Source of the DNA: a virus
IMG/VR virus record: IMGVR_UViG_3300003635_000011
Location: 1-37,669 of that record
Strand: one strand, 5' to 3'
Length of the DNA stretch: 37,669 nucleotides
The notes beneath the pieces are model-generated. The model was not told the DNA's origin, did no database searches, and saw nothing but the letters and a program-made list of their open reading frames with translations. Below are positions 1,096 through 13,332 of the stretch, piece by piece. A program made the translations under genes and the position numbers. Within the stretch, counting starts at the first letter, position 1; the number at the start of each line of letters is the position of its first letter.

Positions 1096-1272
1096 TTACA
1101 CCAAATCTTCGAGGATTGAAAGCGCAGTGCTGACCTTACGCGAGTGAATGTCATTCCTCAGGGCGTCGACGGCTTGCTCAATATCCCTCTCCATCTCATC
1201 GAGCAGCTGCCTAAGAACCCGGTTCTCTTCGCGAAGCTTATTGATTTCGCTTTGCTCCTCATGTTCATTCAT
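1096..1272 (-). CDS. 58-aa coiled-coil protein
   Basis: ATG at 1272-1270 is preceded by GGAGAAGGGCC and overlaps the last 8 nt of the primase/helicase gene. The product begins MNEHEEQSEINKLREENRVL, then QLLDEMERDIEQ: a leucine-zipper-like heptad over residues ~12-35. It ends at TAA 1096-1098, before the next leftward gene. Unknown function; perhaps a small oligomeric regulator or partner of the preceding replication protein. Confidence 0.6.
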   Translation of the reverse strand: MNEHEEQSEINKLREENRVLRQLLDEMERDIEQAVDALRNDIHSRKVSTALSILEDLV

Positions 1273-3169
1273 GGCCCTTCTCCTGCTTGATGCCGGCAGC
1301 CTTTCTGCCAGCTGGTGAAAGAAGTCTATCTTTCCCGGTTCCCTCTGTCAAGTGCCCCTTCGCTTCGAGCTTGGCGATGACACGCTGAATCCCTGCAAGC
1401 GACGTGCACTTTGCATCTTCACCCCACCTTTCCTTCGCTCGGCGAGATAGGTCACGCTGGGATATAGACTTGTTCTCGTGATACTCCCACAACACAAACT
1501 GTTCGCGCTCGCGCTGTACGCTTTCCTGCGTCTCCATCTCCGTCTCGCCAAGCTCAACGCATACGACGGTAGTCATACCCTCGCCGGTGATGTTGTTGAC
1601 CATTCCTTCAAGCGTCGCCACCTCAGACTTAAAGAATCGCGGCGTGAACGGCAGACCCCGATACTTGCTAGGGTGCGGCCTCATCTGCGATGCGTTCTCA
1701 TCACCATCGAGGATAATAGCGCAGTCAATCTCGCCGAGAAACGAGCCTCCGCCTCGCGGCACGATGGCGTCGCCCCGCGCGCCCTTGTTGGGATGGGACA
1801 GGACTACCACGGCCGGCGACCCCTCAAGCTCGGTCAGGCTGCGCAGGTAGGCCGCATGCTCCCGCCGCTGTACGTTGTCGTTCTCGTCCTGACCGCCGTA
1901 GTAGGCCACGTCAGTGTCCACAATGACAAGGTCCCATACGTGATCCGCGAACTGAGAACGGATAACCGGAAGGTTCGGGCCCAGCGGGAACGCTTTCGGC
2001 ACAAAGGTGAGGTTTGTCAAATTTTCCGGCTGCAGCTGGTGCTGGTCCATTGCCGCCTTGAGCCGCTTGCGCAGGTCGTCTGGGTTCTCGCCCGCAAGGT
2101 ACAGGACCCTGCCCGGCATTGTCATACGCCCCAGGAACATATCGCCCATGGCTACCTGTAACGCAAGCTCTACGGCCATGACGGTCTTACCCGAGCCCGG
2201 GTGACCGGTCACCGCGTACACATAACCCTTGGCGAACATACCGTCGACGACATATGTCGGCGGCTTCAGGTTGTCAAGGAAAGTTGACACCTCCTCGGTC
2301 GGTATCTGGGCCACAATGTCCGGGGCCACCTCAGCAGGTCGCTTGTCCACCATGCCGCGCTCGTCTCGACGTTGCCACGTGCGGGCCACGTTGTTCAGAA
2401 AGCGCAATGCCCGGTCATGGGGTGTAGCGCCTTTCTTGTAGAGGGGCTCGCTCGGGTCGTCGAACAGAGGCGGGTCGTGGCGCCCGAAGTCATAGAGCAC
2501 AAGGTCTCCGACAATATCGGTGATGGGCGGCTGCGGGTCCCGGCTCAGGGCAGCGTAGGCAATCTGCTTGAGCTTGTCATTGCGGCCGGCCGGTTCCGTG
2601 CTCGTCGCACTAGTCCGAGCCTTTGACAGGTCCAGCATGGACGCGTCTATCGGGTCAGCGTCCACGGCATACGTGATGCTGTCCGGATAGTCGCTGTAGT
2701 GGCAGCTAGGCATGTAGTAGATGCGGCCCGGGTTGAAGCAACTCACGTCGATGTTGGGGTCAGAGCCCAGCAGGTCCTCGTAGAAGGCCTCCATCATGCT
2801 GCGGTGCAATGACACGTCCACCGGGTAGGCTAGCGGGACCACTAGGCGGAACTTGGGCTTTTCCTTCGTGGCGGAGAACGTTGAGTAAACGTAGGCCTCG
2901 ATGCCGTGCTCGTCCATGCGCTCCCGTATCGCATATGGGTCAGTCGGGCGGTCGCCTGTCTGGTCATAGTCGAACACGAGCGCGTGCACGCTCTCGACGT
3001 TTTCGTCCAGCCGGCGGTTGTCCGTGAAGGTTACCGGTGCCCACAGCGGGGCACGGTCCTTTTCCGGGACACGTAAGTGGTGGCCAAAGACCACGTAGCA
3101 GGCCTCGCTGTCGTACTCCTCGGGCGTGCCGTGCGTGGATAGAATGCTGTCAAACTTAGTGAGCCTCAT
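1265..3169 (-). CDS. Phage primase/helicase: PrimPol-like domain plus RecA-like ATPase
   Basis: A 634-residue replication protein. The N-terminal part has archaeo-eukaryotic primase (PrimPol) marks: D67-x-D69 in 'LVFDYDQTG', the 'STFSATKEKPKFRLVVPL' strand-loop at 96-113, and 'NPGRIYYMPS' at 146-155. The C-terminal part is a RecA/RepA-like ATPase: Walker A GHPGSGKT (322-329), Walker B LVIVDTD (414-420), and a sensor-like VVVLSHPNKG near 454. It should make primers and/or unwind DNA at forks. I start at ATG 3169, which has AGAGGAGA upstream and shares its A with the preceding TAATG stop. A longer frame back to 3268 reads through the upstream gene and is not needed. No phage DNA polymerase is visible in the window. 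Confidence 0.85.
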   Translation of the reverse strand: MRLTKFDSILSTHGTPEEYDSEACYVVFGHHLRVPEKDRAPLWAPVTFTDNRRLDENVESVHALVFDYDQTGDRPTDPYAIRERMDEHGIEAYVYSTFSATKEKPKFRLVVPLAYPVDVSLHRSMMEAFYEDLLGSDPNIDVSCFNPGRIYYMPSCHYSDYPDSITYAVDADPIDASMLDLSKARTSATSTEPAGRNDKLKQIAYAALSRDPQPPITDIVGDLVLYDFGRHDPPLFDDPSEPLYKKGATPHDRALRFLNNVARTWQRRDERGMVDKRPAEVAPDIVAQIPTEEVSTFLDNLKPPTYVVDGMFAKGYVYAVTGHPGSGKTVMAVELALQVAMGDMFLGRMTMPGRVLYLAGENPDDLRKRLKAAMDQHQLQPENLTNLTFVPKAFPLGPNLPVIRSQFADHVWDLVIVDTDVAYYGGQDENDNVQRREHAAYLRSLTELEGSPAVVVLSHPNKGARGDAIVPRGGGSFLGEIDCAIILDGDENASQMRPHPSKYRGLPFTPRFFKSEVATLEGMVNNITGEGMTTVVCVELGETEMETQESVQREREQFVLWEYHENKSISQRDLSRRAKERWGEDAKCTSLAGIQRVIAKLEAKGHLTEGTGKDRLLSPAGRKAAGIKQEKGHE

Positions 3170-3345
3170 TAGATAAATTCTCCTCTCTCCCAAATGTCCT
3201 CCGGGTCGAAGGGGCAGTATTCCCAGTCTTCCGGCTGCTCTCGTCTCCAGTGCTGGCAATACTCCCACGGTTCCTCAATTCCAGTCGCCTTGTCAGGAGG
3301 TGTTGGTCCCCAGGAATCGTCCATTTCGCTACGCATTTTATCCAT
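3169..3345 (-). CDS. 58-aa acidic/Trp-rich protein
   Basis: The frame ends DIWERGEFI and its TAA overlaps the primase/helicase ATG (TAATG). The start is uncertain. ATG 3345 has GGAG 9 nt before it and ATG 3336 has GAAGAG. Longer starts back to 3471 only read the upstream gene out of frame and look unnatural. The protein has a repeated WEYC motif (PWEYCQHW, DWEYCPFD) separated by about 13 residues, so it could bind a metal or be disulphide linked. Unknown function; its coupling to the primase gene suggests co-expression. Confidence 0.5.
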   Translation of the reverse strand: MDKMRSEMDDSWGPTPPDKATGIEEPWEYCQHWRREQPEDWEYCPFDPEDIWERGEFI

Positions 3346-4948: not shown

Positions 4949-4977
4949 ATTGTAGGTGGTGGCGGGAGCCCTGTCAA
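4949..4977 (-). promoter_or_regulatory. Consensus sigma-70 promoter, leftward
   Basis: On the minus strand TTGACA (4977-4972) is followed by 17 nt and TACAAT (4954-4949), 11 of 12 consensus bases at the ideal spacing. Transcription would start near 4942 and run into the small early genes and the primase/helicase. This is the best host-type promoter I found and marks the left arm as early. Confidence 0.8.
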
Positions 4978-4995: not shown

Positions 4996-5100
4996 TTACG
5001 CGAAGTGTGCCGCGCCCGTGCCGTGGGCCTGGATGACAATCGAACCGCGCCGCCCGGACGACAGGCCGTCACATGCCTTGCACGTCGCGCACGTGAGCTT
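4996..5100 (-). pseudogene. Out-of-frame C-terminal Cys cluster of the 5069-5809 gene
   Basis: In the +1 frame relative to the upstream gene, translation after the A5 run (minus strand 5103-5099) gives KLTCATCKACDGLSSGRRG..., then a hydrophobic/His stretch, and TAA at 4998-4996. A Cys-x2-Cys-x2-Cys cluster with this tail is what I would expect at the end of the upstream protein's family. Removing one A from the A5 run would join the frames. It is either a true disabling frameshift, a +1 recoding site, or an assembly/sequencing error in a homopolymer. Confidence 0.6.
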
Positions 5101-5809
5101 TTTGCCCGCCACGGCGCTTGATGCTGTCGGCGGACACTCGGAAGGTACGGAAGCCCTGAGCGTTGTACGCGTCCGCCTGTTGGGCCGTGTCGGCGGACAG
5201 CATGCACAGTGACGCGATGCGGCGGCGCTGCTCGGCGCTGAGCGCGGGGTTTTCGTGCTGGTGAGTGTATCCGGTATGGCTATCCGCGCCAGCTACAAGG
5301 CATTCCCACACTGCCGCCGGGACCGCTGCCGGGTCGCCGTAGGTGCCGAGGCGGACCGCGCGGCCCTCGCCAAGGGCCTTGATTGCGATGCTGGCGGATG
5401 CACGCGGGTAACCGCCGCGAGTGTATTTGTCGTAGACCGAGCGCGGACCGTGGGCAAGTGTCACGTAGCAGCTGCGGCCCTTGCCCGTACCATCGCCGCG
5501 ATGCTGGCACGTGCCACATATGCTAGCGTCCTGTCCGGTCTTCACGGCCTCGATTGGATGTACGTCACTGCGAATGATGTAGGTTTGAACCATCGCCCCG
5601 TCAGTGTTGTGTGATACGCATGCCCAAAACCAAAACCAAGCCTTATAGCTTGGCCCTTTACGCGGCTTGCGGTCACATCCTTTAGCCATGATATCGCGGG
5701 CCGCCGCATAGTCGATGCCGAATGCGGCAGCGGTGCTGATAACGGTGCAGTCGTTGTACTCCGCTTCGTGCAAGCGTTGTGCGTCGTTCGCTAGTGTTTG
5801 GTAGTCCAT
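5069..5809 (-). CDS. Two-part early protein, C-terminus frameshifted
   Basis: 246 residues as read. Residues 1-52 (EYNDCTVIST...DRKPRKG) look like a 'NDCTV...R-PRKG' segment found in other small phage proteins. Residues ~53-225 look like a separate conserved phage family: VQTYIIRSDVHP, CGTCQHR (C98, C101) with C114, RLGTYGDPAAVP, HTGYTHQ, and RTFRVSAD. It may be a fusion. The biochemical function is not known to me. The stop at 5069 comes from a frame change; the expected Cys-rich end continues in another frame to 4996. The start ATG has AGG at about -8. It is the first gene left of the sigma-54 bank. Confidence 0.65.
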   Translation of the reverse strand: MDYQTLANDAQRLHEAEYNDCTVISTAAAFGIDYAAARDIMAKGCDRKPRKGPSYKAWFWFWACVSHNTDGAMVQTYIIRSDVHPIEAVKTGQDASICGTCQHRGDGTGKGRSCYVTLAHGPRSVYDKYTRGGYPRASASIAIKALGEGRAVRLGTYGDPAAVPAAVWECLVAGADSHTGYTHQHENPALSAEQRRRIASLCMLSADTAQQADAYNAQGFRTFRVSADSIKRRGGQKAHVRDVQGM

Positions 5810-5896
5810 GTGCCTAGCCTCGTGTTTACGTTGACCGTGGTTCGAATTCCAGGTGGTCCGTCGTGGCTGTCAAGTCTCGCGTTACGCGCGCGGTAC

Positions 5897-5926
5897 GTTA
5901 TATGGATATGACGGCGCCCCTTGCAA
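5897..5926 (-). promoter_or_regulatory. Possible sigma-70 promoter, leftward
   Basis: On the minus strand TTGCAA (5926-5921), an 18-nt spacer and TATAAC (5902-5897) give 4/6 and 5/6 matches. It overlaps the leftmost sigma-54 type site, so both polymerases could compete here. It would drive the 5069-5809 gene. Moderate support only. Confidence 0.35.
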
Positions 5927-5937
5927 TTTCCATGCCA
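5922..5937 (-). promoter_or_regulatory. Sigma-54 type -24/-12 site, leftward (m1)
   Basis: Minus-strand TGGCATGGAAATTGCA matches TGGCACG-N4-TTGCW at all fixed positions except one (C to T), with the essential GG and GC dinucleotides 10 nt apart. Expected start near 5911, upstream of the 5069-5809 gene. Confidence 0.65.
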
Positions 5938-5987
5938 AGATGATATCGTCTCATTGCTTACGGCCAAAACCGCTCCGGAACTCCGCC

Positions 5988-6003
5988 CGCAAGAAACGTG
6001 CCC
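5988..6003 (-). promoter_or_regulatory. Sigma-54 type -24/-12 site, leftward (m2)
   Basis: Minus-strand GGGCACGTTTCTTGCG keeps GGCACG, exact N4 spacing and TTGC. It differs from consensus at the first and last base only. Confidence 0.6.
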
Positions 6004-6022
6004 GGGCCCGCGCGTTCCTTAT

Positions 6023-6038
6023 TGCAAGCACCATGCCA
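6023..6038 (-). promoter_or_regulatory. Sigma-54 type -24/-12 site, leftward (m3)
   Basis: Minus-strand TGGCATGGTGCTTGCA has one mismatch (C to T) to TGGCACG-N4-TTGCW and correct GG-N10-GC spacing. It is the innermost leftward site, only 20 nt from the first rightward one. Confidence 0.65.
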
Positions 6039-6058
6039 AGGGCGCAGCCGCGGCGGGC

Positions 6059-6074
6059 TGGCGCGATTCTTGCA
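6059..6074 (+). promoter_or_regulatory. Sigma-54 type -24/-12 site, rightward (p1)
   Basis: TGGCGCGATTCTTGCA has one mismatch (A to G) to TGGCACG-N4-TTGCW with exact spacing. It is the first of four rightward copies upstream of the virion operon. Confidence 0.65.
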
Positions 6075-6093
6075 TTCAGGCACTTACGAACAT

Positions 6094-6109
6094 TGGCACG
6101 TGGCATGCA
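6094..6109 (+). promoter_or_regulatory. Sigma-54 type -24/-12 site, rightward (p2)
   Basis: TGGCACGTGGCATGCA has a perfect -24 block and one mismatch (T to A) in the -12 block; GG-N10-GC is kept. It is followed by TGGTGG, as in p3. Confidence 0.65.
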
Positions 6110-6150
6110 TGGTGGTTCCCGCTTCGCTGCAGGCCGCGCCCCGCCTCGCT

Positions 6151-6166
6151 TGGCACGCACCTTGCA
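6151..6166 (+). promoter_or_regulatory. Sigma-54 type -24/-12 site, rightward (p3), perfect
   Basis: TTGGCACGCACCTTGCA matches the sigma-54 consensus YTGGCACG-N4-TTGCW at every fixed position. Expected start near 6178. This is the strongest single site and anchors the interpretation of the others. Confidence 0.8.
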
Positions 6167-6183
6167 TGGTGGCTGCAGGGAGC

Positions 6184-6199
6184 CGGCACGCTTTTTGCA
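6184..6199 (+). promoter_or_regulatory. Sigma-54 type -24/-12 site, rightward (p4)
   Basis: CGGCACGCTTTTTGCA differs from consensus only at the first base. It is nearest to the late operon, with an expected start near 6211, about 115 nt before the first start codon and just ahead of the G-run. Confidence 0.7.
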
Positions 6200-6221
6200 T
6201 AGTACGCCAAGCCCTTGATTT

Positions 6222-6243
6222 GGGGGTAGGGGTGGGGGAGGGG
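6222..6243 (+). other. G-quadruplex-like run in the late leader
   Basis: Four G tracts of 5, 4, 5 and 4 (GGGGG-TA-GGGG-T-GGGGG-A-GGGG) fall on the coding strand, about 10-30 nt into transcripts from p4. CCCCGCCCC at 6282-6290 could instead pair with GGGGTGGGG (6229-6237), offering two exclusive RNA folds before the first gene. Confidence 0.6.
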
Positions 6244-6325
6244 AGTTGGGCGAGCAGGGAGTGCGGGGGCCTGGTCACATACCCCGCCCCAAAAAATTTG
6301 AAAATAAAATTAACGGAATCTGAAC

Positions 6326-6691
6326 ATGAAACTACAGCCTTATATTAACGCAATGCTCGGTTGGGACGAGGTCGAGAAGCGGAAAAAGCGGGCTGTAAGG
6401 GAATTTGAGAAAATCGACATGCGCAAAATCGAGAAAGTACTGGAGGACATGGGGATGGACCCGCACGAGGAACTCGTGAAGGTCTACAACGCTGGCATGC
6501 TGCCGGACCAAATCGCCACGGCCGTGCTGAAGCACCTTTCCACAGAGCTTCAGCGAGAACGCCATGTCGAGCGGAAAGAAGTCAAGCACGAGGGCCTCAC
6601 CTTCGCCGACGCCATCCGGGCAGCCTCTCAGGAAGAGGAAACCCCCTCAGACGCACGGAGCGGCTCTGAGAGCGACGCAGACGACGAATAA
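6326..6691 (+). CDS. Probable small terminase subunit
   Basis: A 121-residue protein directly before the large terminase. It starts MKLQPYINAMLGWDEVEKRK; a weak GGA lies about 8 nt upstream. The body is helical and basic (KRKKRAVREFEKIDMRKIEK) and the tail is acidic and disordered (SGSESDADDE). A basic helical N-terminus and flexible acidic C-terminus fit a DNA-recognising, oligomeric small terminase, but no clear HTH is visible and the call rests mainly on position. It is the first gene of the long rightward operon. Confidence 0.55.
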   Translation: MKLQPYINAMLGWDEVEKRKKRAVREFEKIDMRKIEKVLEDMGMDPHEELVKVYNAGMLPDQIATAVLKHLSTELQRERHVERKEVKHEGLTFADAIRAASQEEETPSDARSGSESDADDE

Positions 6692-6704: not shown

Positions 6705-8120
6705 ATGGCGGACAAAAAAGCCGCTGTGGAGCGTATACGGCGCTGGAAACGGGACCCGGTTCTATTCGTCCACGATAATTGGCCTGAAGTCCAACTGGAA
6801 GACTTCCAGGAAGAGGCCCTCCGGGCCATGGCTGAAGGGGGCAAGGTCTCCATCAGGTCTGGCCACGGGGTCGGAAAGACGGCCGTGGAGGCCTTCATCT
6901 GCCTCTGGTTCATGACGACCCACTTTCCGTGCAAGGTGGCCATCTCAGCGCCGTCCGCTCACCAGCTGGACGACGTGCTGAGGCCCGAAATCGGGGCATG
7001 GATGAGTCGGTCGAAGTGGATGGTCAAAGAATTTGACCTGTTTAAGCACCAGCTGGTGCTGAAGGCCGACCCCCACGAATGTTTCGCCGCGTTCCGGACC
7101 GGGAATCGCAATAATCCGGACGCGCTGCAGGGCTTCCACGGCGAGAACTTCCTGTTCTTGCTGGACGAAGCCTCTGGTATTGATGACAGGGTTTATGAGG
7201 TCGCGCAGGGTGCTCTCTCCACGCCCCACGCTAAGGTGCTTTTGGCCGGGAACCCGACGAAAACGTCGGGTTATTTTTGGCGCACGCACAAGGACCCGGC
7301 AGTTGCCCAGTTCTACCACCAGATTCACGTCTCATGCGCCGACTCAAGCCGAGTGTCCGAACAATACCAAGAGGAGATGGCCGCATATGGCACTGAGTCT
7401 AACATCTATCGTGTCCGTTATCTCGGAGAATTTCCTAAAACCGACGACGATGCGGTTGTTCCCTACGAATGGGTTGAGGCCTCGCTCGGTCGCGATAGCA
7501 AACAGGCTGGGGACATCATATGGGGGATGGACCCAGCCCGCTTCGGTGATGACAGAAGCGCCCTTTGCAAGCGTCATGGTAACCATCTTCCCGAGGTCCC
7601 CAAGTACAAGCGCAATCTGGACACCGTACAACTTGCTGAATGGCTCCGATTGGAGTACGACCTTGCCGAAAAGCGGAAGATTCAGCCAGACGTTATCTAT
7701 GTGGATTCCATCGGTGTCGGTGCGGGAGTTGTCGACTCAGCAAAGTCGCTTGGACTCCCTGTTGTCGGAATCAATGTCTCTGAAAGACCGGCAAACGTCC
7801 AGAAATACGCTCGACTACGAGATGAAATATGGTTCAAGGGGCGAGAATGGTTCGAAGACATGCAGTGCGTCCTCCCAGAACGAGCTGCGCTAAGCCCTGC
7901 TGACCAGAAGACACTTGACACGCTCATCGCTGAGCTTACGAACCAGAAATACGAGATTCTGCCGGCCGGAAAGGTGAAGGTGGAGTCGAAAGAAGAGATG
8001 AAACGACGCGGGGAGGCCTCGCCCGACCTCGCAGACGCATTCCTGCTGACCTTCGGCATTGCTCGGGGCAAACGCAGGGGCAAGCCACGACCAATTGAGT
8101 ATAAGAGGAAATTCCTGTGA
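6705..8120 (+). CDS. terL: Large terminase subunit (TerL)
   Basis: A 471-residue packaging motor. The N-terminal ATPase has Walker A SGHGVGKT (52-59), Walker B FLFLLDEA (149-156, catalytic D154/E155) and a coupling-motif-like LLAGNPT (179-185). The C-terminal RNase H-like nuclease has acidic residues in GMDPARFGDD (D276), VIYVDSIGVG (D334) and SPDLADAF near 440. It pumps DNA through the portal using ATP and cuts the concatemer. Length and motif order are typical. Its stop overlaps the GTG start of the next gene (GTGA). Confidence 0.95.
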   Translation: MADKKAAVERIRRWKRDPVLFVHDNWPEVQLEDFQEEALRAMAEGGKVSIRSGHGVGKTAVEAFICLWFMTTHFPCKVAISAPSAHQLDDVLRPEIGAWMSRSKWMVKEFDLFKHQLVLKADPHECFAAFRTGNRNNPDALQGFHGENFLFLLDEASGIDDRVYEVAQGALSTPHAKVLLAGNPTKTSGYFWRTHKDPAVAQFYHQIHVSCADSSRVSEQYQEEMAAYGTESNIYRVRYLGEFPKTDDDAVVPYEWVEASLGRDSKQAGDIIWGMDPARFGDDRSALCKRHGNHLPEVPKYKRNLDTVQLAEWLRLEYDLAEKRKIQPDVIYVDSIGVGAGVVDSAKSLGLPVVGINVSERPANVQKYARLRDEIWFKGREWFEDMQCVLPERAALSPADQKTLDTLIAELTNQKYEILPAGKVKVESKEEMKRRGEASPDLADAFLLTFGIARGKRRGKPRPIEYKRKFL

Positions 8121-8551: not shown

Positions 8552-8721
8552 TGGACTCACGCCAAGTAAGAGCAATTAAGCTGAGCGCTCAGGGCGTTGA
8601 CGAGCTTCGGCATCGAATATCGGTGCTAGAAAACCTTGTCATTACTCTGAGCGACGAAGTGTCCACGCTAAAGAAAGAACGGAGGTCCGGCAATGGCCGT
8701 GGACGACAGAGAACTAAGTGA
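8551..8721 (+). CDS. 56-aa coiled-coil protein
   Basis: It starts at ATG 8551 within TAATG and overlaps the portal start by 29 nt. The sequence MDSRQVRAIKLSAQGVDELR then shows heptad leucines (RISVLENLVITLSDEVSTL) and a basic tail (KKERRSGNGRGRQRTK). It is a short coiled coil ending in a nucleic-acid-like basic tail. Unknown function; it may assist portal assembly or packaging. Confidence 0.6.
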   Translation: MDSRQVRAIKLSAQGVDELRHRISVLENLVITLSDEVSTLKKERRSGNGRGRQRTK

Positions 8722-10933
8722 TGAACAGGTATTTTCGCTGTTCAAGCAGGAAACGTCTGCGTATTCGGCCGAATCTCTGTCGGACCTTGCTAGCGAGCGG
8801 TCCGAGGCGCTCGAGCGCTATCTAGGCGAGCCGCTCGGCGACGAATCCGAGGGCCGCTCCTCGCTGCAGACACGTGAGGTCTACGACATCGTCGAGTCGG
8901 TGATGCCGGCCCTGATGCGTATCTTCTGTGCTGAAGACAATGTCATCACATTCGAGCCGGTGGGCCCGGAGGACGAGCAGCAGGCGGCCATCGAGACTGA
9001 ACTTTGCCGGCACGTGTTCTTCGAGCAGAACAACGGCTACTACAACCTGTACGCATCCGCAAAGGATGGCCTGCTGACAAAGACCGGCCTGCTGCAGATG
9101 TGGTACGACGACAGCGAAAGCATCGAGAAGGAAAGCTACACTGGACTAACGCCCGTCGAGCTTGCGTCGCTGCTGCAGGATGAAGATGCAGAGCGCGAGG
9201 TGAAGGAGTTCGAGCAGAACCCTGACGGAACACTCGACATCACGTTCACGACCACGTGGGACAAGGGTCAGATCCGTATAGTGCCTGTGCCGCCCGAAGA
9301 GATGGGCGTGAACGACGACTCAAGAAGCCCACTAGCTCAGGAACAGGAATTCATCTGGTCAAAGCGCCTCATACCGGCGTGGAAGCTGGTGGACATGGGT
9401 TACGAGCCGGAATTCATCGAGACCCTGCCGTATGACGACACTGTCTACGATGAGGAGGAGCTGGCGCGCCGGAACTATAGCAACGAGACTAACCAGCTGG
9501 GTGATGCGCCGCACTGGTCGATGCGCCGCATCTGGGTGACCGAGGCCTACGGCCGGCTGGACAGGGATGGTGACGGCATCGCAGAGCTGCTGAAGGTGAC
9601 GTCGGCCGGCGGCACTGACGAGGACATGGGCTCGACCCTGATGGACGTGGAAGAGATAGACCGCCTCCCGTTCCACTCATGGGCGCCCATAATCCTCCCT
9701 CACAAGTTTTACGGGCTGGCCCTTACCGATGCCGTCATGGACATCCAAGCGGCCAACACAGCGCTCCTCAGGGGCGTTCTCGACAATGCATACATCGCCA
9801 ACAACGGACGCACCGTGGTCAACACCTCATTCATCGACATCGATGACCTGCTGACCAGCCGCCCGGACCAGATTGTGCGATTCGAGGACGACTCGGGCCA
9901 GATTAACCCGCAGCAGGTCGTACAGCAGCTTCCGGCCAACGCATTGCCTCTGGGGACGTTCGAAGTGATGCAGTACATGGACGAACTCAAGAACCGCCGC
10001 ACTGGCGCCGGCGAGGACGCAATGACGCTGGACTCGGCTGCGCTGGCCAACATTAAGACCGGTGTGTACGCGCTGGCCCACGACAAGGCAGCGGCCAAGA
10101 TTGAGACCATCGCCCGAAACTACGCCGAACTCATGCTGCGGCCGCTGTTCTACCACATGCACGAGCTTCTCCGGAAACATGTAGACCGGAAGCTGACTAT
10201 CAAGCTGAACGGCGAATACCTGCAGACGAACCCGGCTGACTGGAAAGAACGCGCTGATGTGAAGGTGCGCGTAGGGGTCGGCAACGCGAGCCGAGAGAAG
10301 AAGATTATGTCGCTCGAGAGCCTGATGGAAAAGCAGCTGGCCGTGGCAGAGCGCACGCCCCCTGGACAGGTATTCAGTGTGATGAAGGGCTACCAGGCGC
10401 TGAAGGACTGGACGAAGGCTATGGACCTGGAACCGTCTCTGTACTGGGAGGACCCGGCCAAGTTCCAGCCGCCGCCCCCTCAGCCCGACCCTATGATGCA
10501 GGCGCAGCTGCAGCTGCTGCAGGCCCAGGCAGGTGAACTCACCGCTAAAGCGCAGGCAACCATGCTGAACGCTCAGGCCGAGCAGGCCAAGTTCCAGATT
10601 GAGACCAGCATGAAGCAGGCTGAGAACGAGTACAAGCTTCGTCAGGAACAGCTGAAGACGCAGGTCGCGCAGATGAAAGCGCAGGCGGACATCGCCAAGG
10701 CGGAGACGGACGCCGAGAAGGCTGCTCGTGAGTACGCCGTTGCTGGCCTTGAGCGCGAAATGGAGGTAGTACAGAGCGAGCTTGACCGTAAGCTCAAATA
10801 CTACGAGGCGCAGCTGAAGGCCGCTATAGAGATTGCGAAGATGGAATCGCAGGAAGATATAGTGGAATTCCAAGCAGCCCACGACATGGTAAAACAAGAG
10901 GCCCCACGCAATGAAGAATCGTCCGACGAATAA
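8693..10933 (+). CDS. Portal protein (P22/SU10 type)
   Basis: A 746-residue protein right after the terminase. The N-terminal core has the portal-like segment VESVMPALMRIFCAEDNVIT (67-86) and downstream blocks MRRIWVTEAYGRLD, LPFHSWAPIILPHKFYGLAL and NRRTGAGEDAMTLDS. Residues ~600-725 form a long Gln/Ala/Lys-rich coiled coil, as in P22-like portals with an extended barrel. It forms the dodecameric ring through which DNA enters and leaves. The ribosome site is CGGAGG upstream of ATG 8693. Length and position fit, and family assignment at the P22/SU10 level is confident. Confidence 0.9.
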   Translation: MAVDDRELSDEQVFSLFKQETSAYSAESLSDLASERSEALERYLGEPLGDESEGRSSLQTREVYDIVESVMPALMRIFCAEDNVITFEPVGPEDEQQAAIETELCRHVFFEQNNGYYNLYASAKDGLLTKTGLLQMWYDDSESIEKESYTGLTPVELASLLQDEDAEREVKEFEQNPDGTLDITFTTTWDKGQIRIVPVPPEEMGVNDDSRSPLAQEQEFIWSKRLIPAWKLVDMGYEPEFIETLPYDDTVYDEEELARRNYSNETNQLGDAPHWSMRRIWVTEAYGRLDRDGDGIAELLKVTSAGGTDEDMGSTLMDVEEIDRLPFHSWAPIILPHKFYGLALTDAVMDIQAANTALLRGVLDNAYIANNGRTVVNTSFIDIDDLLTSRPDQIVRFEDDSGQINPQQVVQQLPANALPLGTFEVMQYMDELKNRRTGAGEDAMTLDSAALANIKTGVYALAHDKAAAKIETIARNYAELMLRPLFYHMHELLRKHVDRKLTIKLNGEYLQTNPADWKERADVKVRVGVGNASREKKIMSLESLMEKQLAVAERTPPGQVFSVMKGYQALKDWTKAMDLEPSLYWEDPAKFQPPPPQPDPMMQAQLQLLQAQAGELTAKAQATMLNAQAEQAKFQIETSMKQAENEYKLRQEQLKTQVAQMKAQADIAKAETDAEKAAREYAVAGLEREMEVVQSELDRKLKYYEAQLKAAIEIAKMESQEDIVEFQAAHDMVKQEAPRNEESSDE

Positions 10934-12357: not shown

Positions 12358-13332
12358 ATGTCTGTACCCGCAGGTACATTTACGGGATATGCCGCAGTAG
12401 GTGAGCGAGAAGACCTTGCGGACATTATCTACGACATCTCGCCCATGGACACCCCGTTCATGAGCAACGCTGCACGTACTCGTGCAACTGCCGTTTTTCA
12501 CGAATGGCAGACTGACGTTCTCGCAGGCGCCACCTCCGGCAACGCGCAGGTGGAAGGTGATGACTACACTGGTGATACGGCAACGCCGACCGTCCGTCTG
12601 GGTAACTACACTCAGATCTCGACGAAGGTGCCGCGTGTGACCGGTACGCTCCGCGCAGTGGATACCGCAGGTCGCCGTGACGAACTGTCGTATCAGATTG
12701 CCAAGCGTGGCCGCGAACTGAAGCGCGACATCGAGTCTACGGTGACGGGCCTGCAGGCCGCAACGGCTGGCGCCGCTGCTTCTGCTCGCGTTGCTGCTGG
12801 TATCGCAACGTTCCTTTGGCAGAACCAGGTCGCGAAAGGCACGGGCGCTACTACTCCGACTGTCACCTCCGGCGCACCGACGACCGCACCGACCGCAGGG
12901 ACTGCAGGAGCCTATGTCTCCGCGGACCTTAACAACGTCATCGGCCAGTGCTGGGACGAAGGTGGTGACCCGTCCGTGATTATGCTTGGCCGCTTCAACA
13001 AGGTGGCAAACTCTAGCTTCACGGGCATCGGTACTCAGTATCGTGACGTACAGCCGAACGGCGCACTCCGCCCCGGCTCGATTGTTGGTGCCGCTGATGT
13101 CTACATCAGCGACTTTGGCCAGCACGCGATTGTTGCAAACCGGTTTATGCCGAACAACAACGTGTACGCTCTCGATATGGAGTACTGGGCAATTGCCTAT
13201 CTCCGCCCGATTCAGCAGGAAGACCTTGCGAAAACGGGTGACTCGGACCGTCGTATGATTCTGGCAGAGTACACGCTCGAAGCCAAGAATCCTTCGTCTA
13301 GTGGTAAGGTCTACACGACCACCACGTCCTAA
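12358..13332 (+). CDS. Major capsid protein (SU10 / DUF5309 type)
   Basis: A 324-residue protein that starts MSVPAGTFTGYAAVGEREDL after AAGAGGAAAAAACC. It contains the block ADIIYDISPMDTPFMSNA typical of this HK97-fold family, then LAYLRPIQ-like and strand-rich C-terminal parts (EYWAIAYLRPIQQEDLAKTG). It forms the icosahedral shell. There is no N-terminal delta domain, consistent with the separate scaffold gene. A strong terminator follows. Confidence 0.9.
   Translation: MSVPAGTFTGYAAVGEREDLADIIYDISPMDTPFMSNAARTRATAVFHEWQTDVLAGATSGNAQVEGDDYTGDTATPTVRLGNYTQISTKVPRVTGTLRAVDTAGRRDELSYQIAKRGRELKRDIESTVTGLQAATAGAAASARVAAGIATFLWQNQVAKGTGATTPTVTSGAPTTAPTAGTAGAYVSADLNNVIGQCWDEGGDPSVIMLGRFNKVANSSFTGIGTQYRDVQPNGALRPGSIVGAADVYISDFGQHAIVANRFMPNNNVYALDMEYWAIAYLRPIQQEDLAKTGDSDRRMILAEYTLEAKNPSSSGKVYTTTTS

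Follow-up and report, generated by a model that had tools for sequence, protein, structure and literature searches.

We found that the non-coding gap between the two gene arms of a 37,669-bp IMG/VR virus contig holds seven sigma-54-type sites arranged as two back-to-back banks. The contig was analyzed over its whole length, and the whole record is referred to below as the window. The window array is not unique; like banks occupy the same place in many unrelated virus groups. From the sequence data, the host RNA polymerase-sigma-54 holoenzyme (RNAP-sigma-54) is very probably the best candidate for the ligand of these arrays, and we lean toward the reading that the window array is a bank of sites for it, most likely two outward-facing promoter banks.

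Results

Seven sigma-54-type sites lie between the two arms of the window

With up to two mismatches to TGGCACG-N4-TTGCW allowed, exactly seven 16-mers were found between positions 5922 and 6199. Three are on the minus strand, at 5922, 5988, and 6023 (1, 2, and 1 mismatches, respectively), and four are on the plus strand, at 6059, 6094, 6151, and 6184 (1, 1, 0, and 1). The GG-N10-GC core is unbroken in 7 of 7 sites, each of which has GG at -24 and GC at -12, exactly 10 bp apart, within the sigma-54 consensus. Orientation switches at ∼6048, leftward sites lying to the left and rightward sites to the right. The pattern scan reproduced the seven sites, orientations, mismatch counts, and intact core given in a preliminary description of this DNA.

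Table 1. Features of the window around the sigma-54-type array
Feature	Position	Strand	Remark
Sigma-54 site 1, TTGGCATGGAAATTGCA	5922..5938	-	Leftward bank; top E. coli ChIP-matrix score in window, 21.0
Sigma-54 site 2, CGGGCACGTTTCTTGCG	5988..6004	-	Leftward bank; weakest; E. coli matrix rank 10
Sigma-54 site 3, TTGGCATGGTGCTTGCA	6023..6039	-	Leftward bank; E. coli matrix rank 5
Sigma-54 site 4, CTGGCGCGATTCTTGCA	6058..6074	+	Rightward bank; E. coli matrix rank 2
Sigma-54 site 5, TTGGCACGTGGCATGCA	6093..6109	+	Rightward bank; weak by E. coli matrix, rank 8
Sigma-54 site 6, TTGGCACGCACCTTGCA	6150..6166	+	Rightward bank; perfect consensus; E. coli matrix rank 3
Sigma-54 site 7, CCGGCACGCTTTTTGCA	6183..6199	+	Rightward bank; E. 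coli matrix rank 4
Non-coding divergent control region holding the array	5810..6325	.	Flanked by ORFs 5069-5809 (-) and 6326-6691 (+)
First left-arm gene, PHROG 2554-like, function unknown	5069..5809	-	
Primase/helicase-type replication protein, left arm	1265..3268	-	
First virion-arm gene, putative small terminase	6326..6691	+	By position only; no PHROG match
Large terminase subunit (TerL)	6705..8120	+	
Portal protein	8693..10933	+	
Major capsid protein	12358..13332	+	
Sigma-70-like promoter TTGACA-17-TACAAT, 11/12 matches	4949..4977	-	Left arm, behind first left gene

As shown in Table 1, the array is enclosed by a divergent region, inside which ORFs were treated as spurious. The virion operon runs rightward from 6326 through TerL, portal, scaffold, capsid, and other genes, and the arm that runs leftward from 5809 includes the primase/helicase; genes for ribonucleotide reductase, Sak4-like, SSB-like, Cas4-type exonuclease, and endonuclease VII proteins are on the minus strand at the far end of the contig. 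Provided that the contig is circularly permuted, the gap that holds the array would be its main divergent control region. The proposal that the region is a divergent control center of sigma-54-type sites agrees with its position between a leftward replication arm and a rightward virion arm, and with like placement in many other phages.

The sigma-70-like promoter on the minus strand lies ∼50 nt before an 82-aa ORF of the left arm, and the arrangement points to sigma-70 control of the left arm that is separate from control by sigma-54. On the plus strand of the window no sigma-70 match exceeded 9/12, so the visible promoter candidates of the virion arm are the sigma-54 sites. A near-ideal G-quadruplex motif, GGGGGTAGGGGTGGGGGAGGGG, is present at 6218-6245 on the plus strand, between the rightward bank and the first virion gene, and would be transcribed into the 5' leader of the virion mRNA. 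The tRNA and Rfam scans of the window gave nothing, and the GGTTCGAATTCC string at ∼5851 is no tRNA. No inverted repeat or enhancer site was recognized near the array in 5600-6500, and a BLAST search of the array region against INPHARED phages gave no match.

The window array is not a chance cluster

The whole window has 13 matches at up to two mismatches, 7 of which fall within the 278 bp of the array. In a weighted consensus scan with a threshold of ≥14.5 of 16.5, only the seven array sites matched in 37,669 bp. Markov genomes of order 1-3 gave ∼2 matches per genome and at most 2 in any 280 bp, and ∼0.05 matches are expected in the array region under these models. The spacing is equally specific: N4 gave 7 matches in the region, whereas all other spacer lengths from 0 to 9 gave at most 3 (≤2 mismatches).

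For an independent matrix we took 84 sigma-54 motifs mapped by ChIP-seq in E. coli (PMC4591121, tables). By this matrix the array sites rank 1-5, 8, and 10 in the whole window, and five of the seven exceed the E. coli intergenic median; the weakest two of the seven are those at 5988 and 6093. Within 265 bp lie seven of the ten best scores in the window, a number that never rose above four with 1000 column-permuted matrices. The cluster was not reproduced by shuffled sequence, Markov models, or permuted motifs, and together with the spacer control these results rule out a chance cluster in the window. The N4 spacers of the seven sites are all different, so the window array is not a copied repeat.

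Like arrays recur upstream of TerL in many viral contigs

Exact-pattern scans of IMG/VR for two tandem or two divergent sites gave at least 120 matches each, against a chance expectation that we roughly estimate at ∼1 match each, and a triple-tandem scan likewise gave at least 120 matches. Among the viral loci listed, 117 matched the strict triple. Clustering yielded at least 121 non-redundant arrays with three or more sites (3-21 each), mostly in podophage-like contigs. This collection was found with the sigma-54 consensus and is ascertained by it; what carries our argument is not the letters themselves but the position, copy number, fixed spacer, and conservation of the sites. The earlier remark that phages rarely look RpoN-dependent is misleading, given how commonly contigs of uncultured viruses carry arrays of the motif.

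The array was upstream of TerL in 34 of 34 groups scored, 33 with a phrog_38-type TerL plus the window, and in all six groups with a window-type TerL (L359, L215, L157, L227, L205, and L079). In total, 40 of 40 groups with TerL on the same stretch have the array upstream; their TerL proteins belong to two lineages that are unrelated, one of them that of the window. The usual layout is a replication arm (primase/helicase, DNA polymerase), the array, and then the virion arm, as judged from crude ORF calls on the array contigs. Twenty array genomes were read, either whole or up to 39.9 kb from the start, and 18 of them have one main array and a few single sites elsewhere; in the other two (G028 and G037) the array is outside the part read.

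Within the arrays, packing peaks at 25-29 nt for tandem sites and at 18-21 nt for convergent pairs. Two-bank arrays that face outward outnumber those that face inward by 9 to 3, and tandem-only arrays, the count of which is inflated by the tandem search pattern, reach ten sites in one orientation. By the crude gene calls, several tandem arrays seem to be placed between convergent genes. Pooled over 34 phages, 87 sites point toward the virion arm and 95 away from it, with no bias, and sigma-70-like sites are enriched in the array gaps (29 observed versus 8 expected).

Two other arrangements were observed. Three contigs (L150, L151, and L245) carry divergent sigma-54-like pairs every several hundred bp rather than one array, and these spaced pairs may be per-gene promoters or dispersed repeats. 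A 147-kb viral contig (L080:2790-6445) has 40 strong sigma-54-like sites in 6.5 kb, with one cluster of 21.

The strict triple had 12 matches in 84,980 bacterial and archaeal genomes (257 Gb), a raw count from a collection unequal in size to the viral one. Nine of these were judged to be copied repeats or otherwise unspecific, and three (L290, L292, and L294) were genuine diverged arrays; RpoN is encoded in all three genomes with genuine arrays. In a Methylococcaceae genome the array (L294) lies between a phage-type primase and tRNA-Pro(GGG)/ihfA-pheT, and the locus (L294:4335-6212) looks like an integrated phage or satellite, which would provide a host link for the arrays.

The array element varies among relatives of the window

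Two contigs found by pattern (L359 and L215) share TerL and portal with the window, and several other contigs have a homologue of its PHROG 2554-like flank gene (5069-5809) at a distance of 0.9-1.7 kb from an array. This gene is also present without arrays (L283-L285). Relatives retrieved by TerL, portal, and left-flank gene searches carried no arrays, and because those from the TerL and portal searches lack them, the array element is apparently gained and lost rapidly. The window phage is read as LUZ24-like because the nearest named phages by TerL are C72C1 and, among cultured ones, Sinorhizobium phage phiM5. The named phages with related genes (C72C1, phiM5, MW202879, SIO1, DSL-LC05, and MW202483) had no array in the sequence compared.

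Recognition letters are conserved and the region after -12 is GC-rich

In a family of 19 related arrays, identity was 0.89 for the -24/-12 letters and 0.68 for the N4 spacers, with 0.67 for the DNA between sites and 0.70 for the flanks. These values argue for selection on the recognition letters while the spacer drifts, a result that applies to the 19-array family, the window having no close relative for the same test. Among letters outside the search pattern, spacer position 1 is a purine and positions 2-3 are A/T, as in E. coli sites; the array sites depart from E. coli at the end of the spacer, where the last position is C-rich.

Positions -9 to -6 are GC-rich in array sites (A/T 0.32-0.46), and the A/T-rich melting region just after -12, which is usual although not absolute for promoters, is absent in the array sites as a set. 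Salmonella sigma-54 promoters have 76% A/T at -9 (PMC3844500). The window's own seven sites are of mixed composition after -12. The GC-rich stretch lowers the claim that array sites are promoters and not the claim that they are binding sites.

Array phages encode no recognizable polymerase or RpoN of their own

No T7-type RNA polymerase was detected in 78 array records, the window included and many of them fragments, by a search that detected the phage T7 control. The Sigma54_DBD/RpoN domain (PF04552) was found in 0 of 50 array records and Sigma54_activat (PF00158) in 1 of 50, marginally, just over the cut-off; among the window proteins scanned there were no RpoN or sigma-54 activator domains. 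On these domain searches a phage-encoded RpoN, enhancer-binding protein, or T7 RNA polymerase was rejected as the partner of the arrays. The idea that one trans-acting gene accompanies every array was likewise rejected, as no such neighbor was found. The protein family most widely distributed across array groups is TerL (33/92).

Discussion

Because array phages lack a T7-type polymerase, RpoN, and essentially any activator, and because the consensus and its spacer are exact, we consider with good confidence that host RNAP-sigma-54 is the likely ligand of the arrays. For the window, promoter function is probable from the sequence; binding by RpoN, transcription, and the activator are what we infer. 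Host RNAP-sigma-54 would sit on the -24/-12 elements as closed complexes, to be opened by a host enhancer-binding protein. The virion operon is predicted to start rightward near 6210, ∼115 nt before its first gene, and the first left-arm gene to start leftward near 5911, and the left arm would additionally be served by the sigma-70-type promoter at 4949-4977. The promoter reading is favored by the fixed place upstream of TerL, by the facing of each window bank toward its own arm, by the excess of outward over inward arrays, and by the tandem-only arrays of up to ten sites.

The sigma-54 holoenzyme is unable to open DNA without an enhancer-binding protein, and by known footprint size convergent sites 18-21 nt apart are too close for two holoenzymes. 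The promoter reading is weakened because no enhancer site was recognized near the window array, several tandem arrays seem to lie between convergent genes, and relatives from the TerL and portal searches lack arrays. It is weakened further by several features that at the same time favor a decoy or trap: almost no array phage encodes an activator, the sites when pooled favor neither arm, the convergent ones overlap, the tandem ones are tightly packed, the region just after -12 is GC-rich rather than easily melted, and the gaps hold sigma-70-like promoters as well. The claim of the preliminary description that seven promoters make the phage RpoN-dependent goes further than the sequence shows: neither an enhancer site nor a phage-encoded activator was found, pooled orientation shows no bias in other phages, and a decoy that is bound but does not fire is a rival.

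As a decoy, the array would bind RNAP-sigma-54 or sigma-54 without firing, and as the genome replicates, more of this scarce factor would be withdrawn from host sigma-54 functions such as the genes for phage shock, RNA repair, pili, flagella, or nitrogen. Alternatively, the bound array would block transcription across the control region. We regard this as a serious but unlikely alternative: a position always upstream of TerL is unnecessary for a decoy, tandem-only arrays hold one orientation over as many as ten sites, the two banks of the window each face outward, and there are few sites per genome before replication. A broader form, to which we give slightly less credence still, is a widespread class of phages with multi-site sigma-54 traps upstream of their terminase genes, which would sense or seize the host sigma-54 pool, titrate it during replication, shut off host sigma-54 programs, and time the switch from the replication arm to the virion arm.

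That the sites serve another, phage-encoded DNA-binding protein with sigma-54-like recognition, such as a repressor acting in the control region or an initiator of replication that binds iterons at the origin, is improbable. The alternating convergent and divergent packing does resemble operator or iteron arrays, the array lies in the main non-coding control region, a possible origin location, and arrays vary fast between relatives. However, no protein family is common to all array groups, the full asymmetric sigma-54 consensus with its fixed 4-bp spacer recurs in ∼120 non-redundant arrays, the spacer letters that the search left free mostly follow those of E. coli sigma-54 sites, and the 50 records scanned hold no Sigma54_DBD homologue. 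A chance cluster or a simple tandem repeat without function is hardly credible: such artefacts exist, most of the 12 cellular matches looking like copied tandem repeats, but the shuffle, Markov, spacer, and permuted-motif controls all speak against it, the N4 spacers all differ in the window and in 71 of 121 arrays among the matches listed, core letters are more conserved than spacers, and the array location is fixed.

To our knowledge, phages are not usually considered to express their genes through sigma-54. No description of such phage sigma-54 arrays was found in open-access PubMed Central full text, in which the matches for sigma-54 or RpoN with phage concerned host regulons, receptors, and a sigma-54-like protein predicted for a phage of Pectobacterium; the earlier statement that no array of this form had been described has thus met no contrary report in that literature. 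The occurrence of ∼120 non-redundant arrays at one conserved place suggests a link between many environmental phages and the RpoN state of their host, by transcription or by titration. Hosts of array phages would then have to possess rpoN, and the timing of phage growth is predicted to follow the nitrogen, motility, or stress state of the host. The arrays would also offer a sequence handle for predicting the hosts of uncultured phages.

Comparison with known systems

The LUZ24-like podophages Sinorhizobium phage phiM5 and Phage C72C1 are the closest named TerL relatives of the window (39-44% identity) and have a similar virion gene order, but differ from it in having no array in the sequence compared (∼half of the genome for phiM5). 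SIO1-type podophages (Cobavirinae, Roseobacter) have a T7-like DNA polymerase related to that of one array phage (L135; 40%), whereas SIO1 itself is without an array.

In T7, too, a transcription arm opens with a row of promoters for the host RNAP, annotated as A1, A2, and A3, and the divergent promoters of phi29 are a further bank of host-polymerase promoters in a phage early control region. These banks consist of sigma-70 or sigma-A promoters, which need no activator, and in this sigma-54 differs; moreover, T7 encodes its own polymerase, whereas the array phages do not.

With the bacterial sigma-54 sites of E. coli (PMC4591121) and Salmonella (PMC3844500), the arrays share the consensus, the exact N4 spacer, and the GG/GC core; the seventh letter is likewise C or T, and the spacers are for the most part of like composition. 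The bacterial sites are mostly single as listed, whereas the arrays gather 3-21 sites within a few hundred bp, in viruses. The array sites frequently face both ways, and a GC-rich stretch follows their -12 element.
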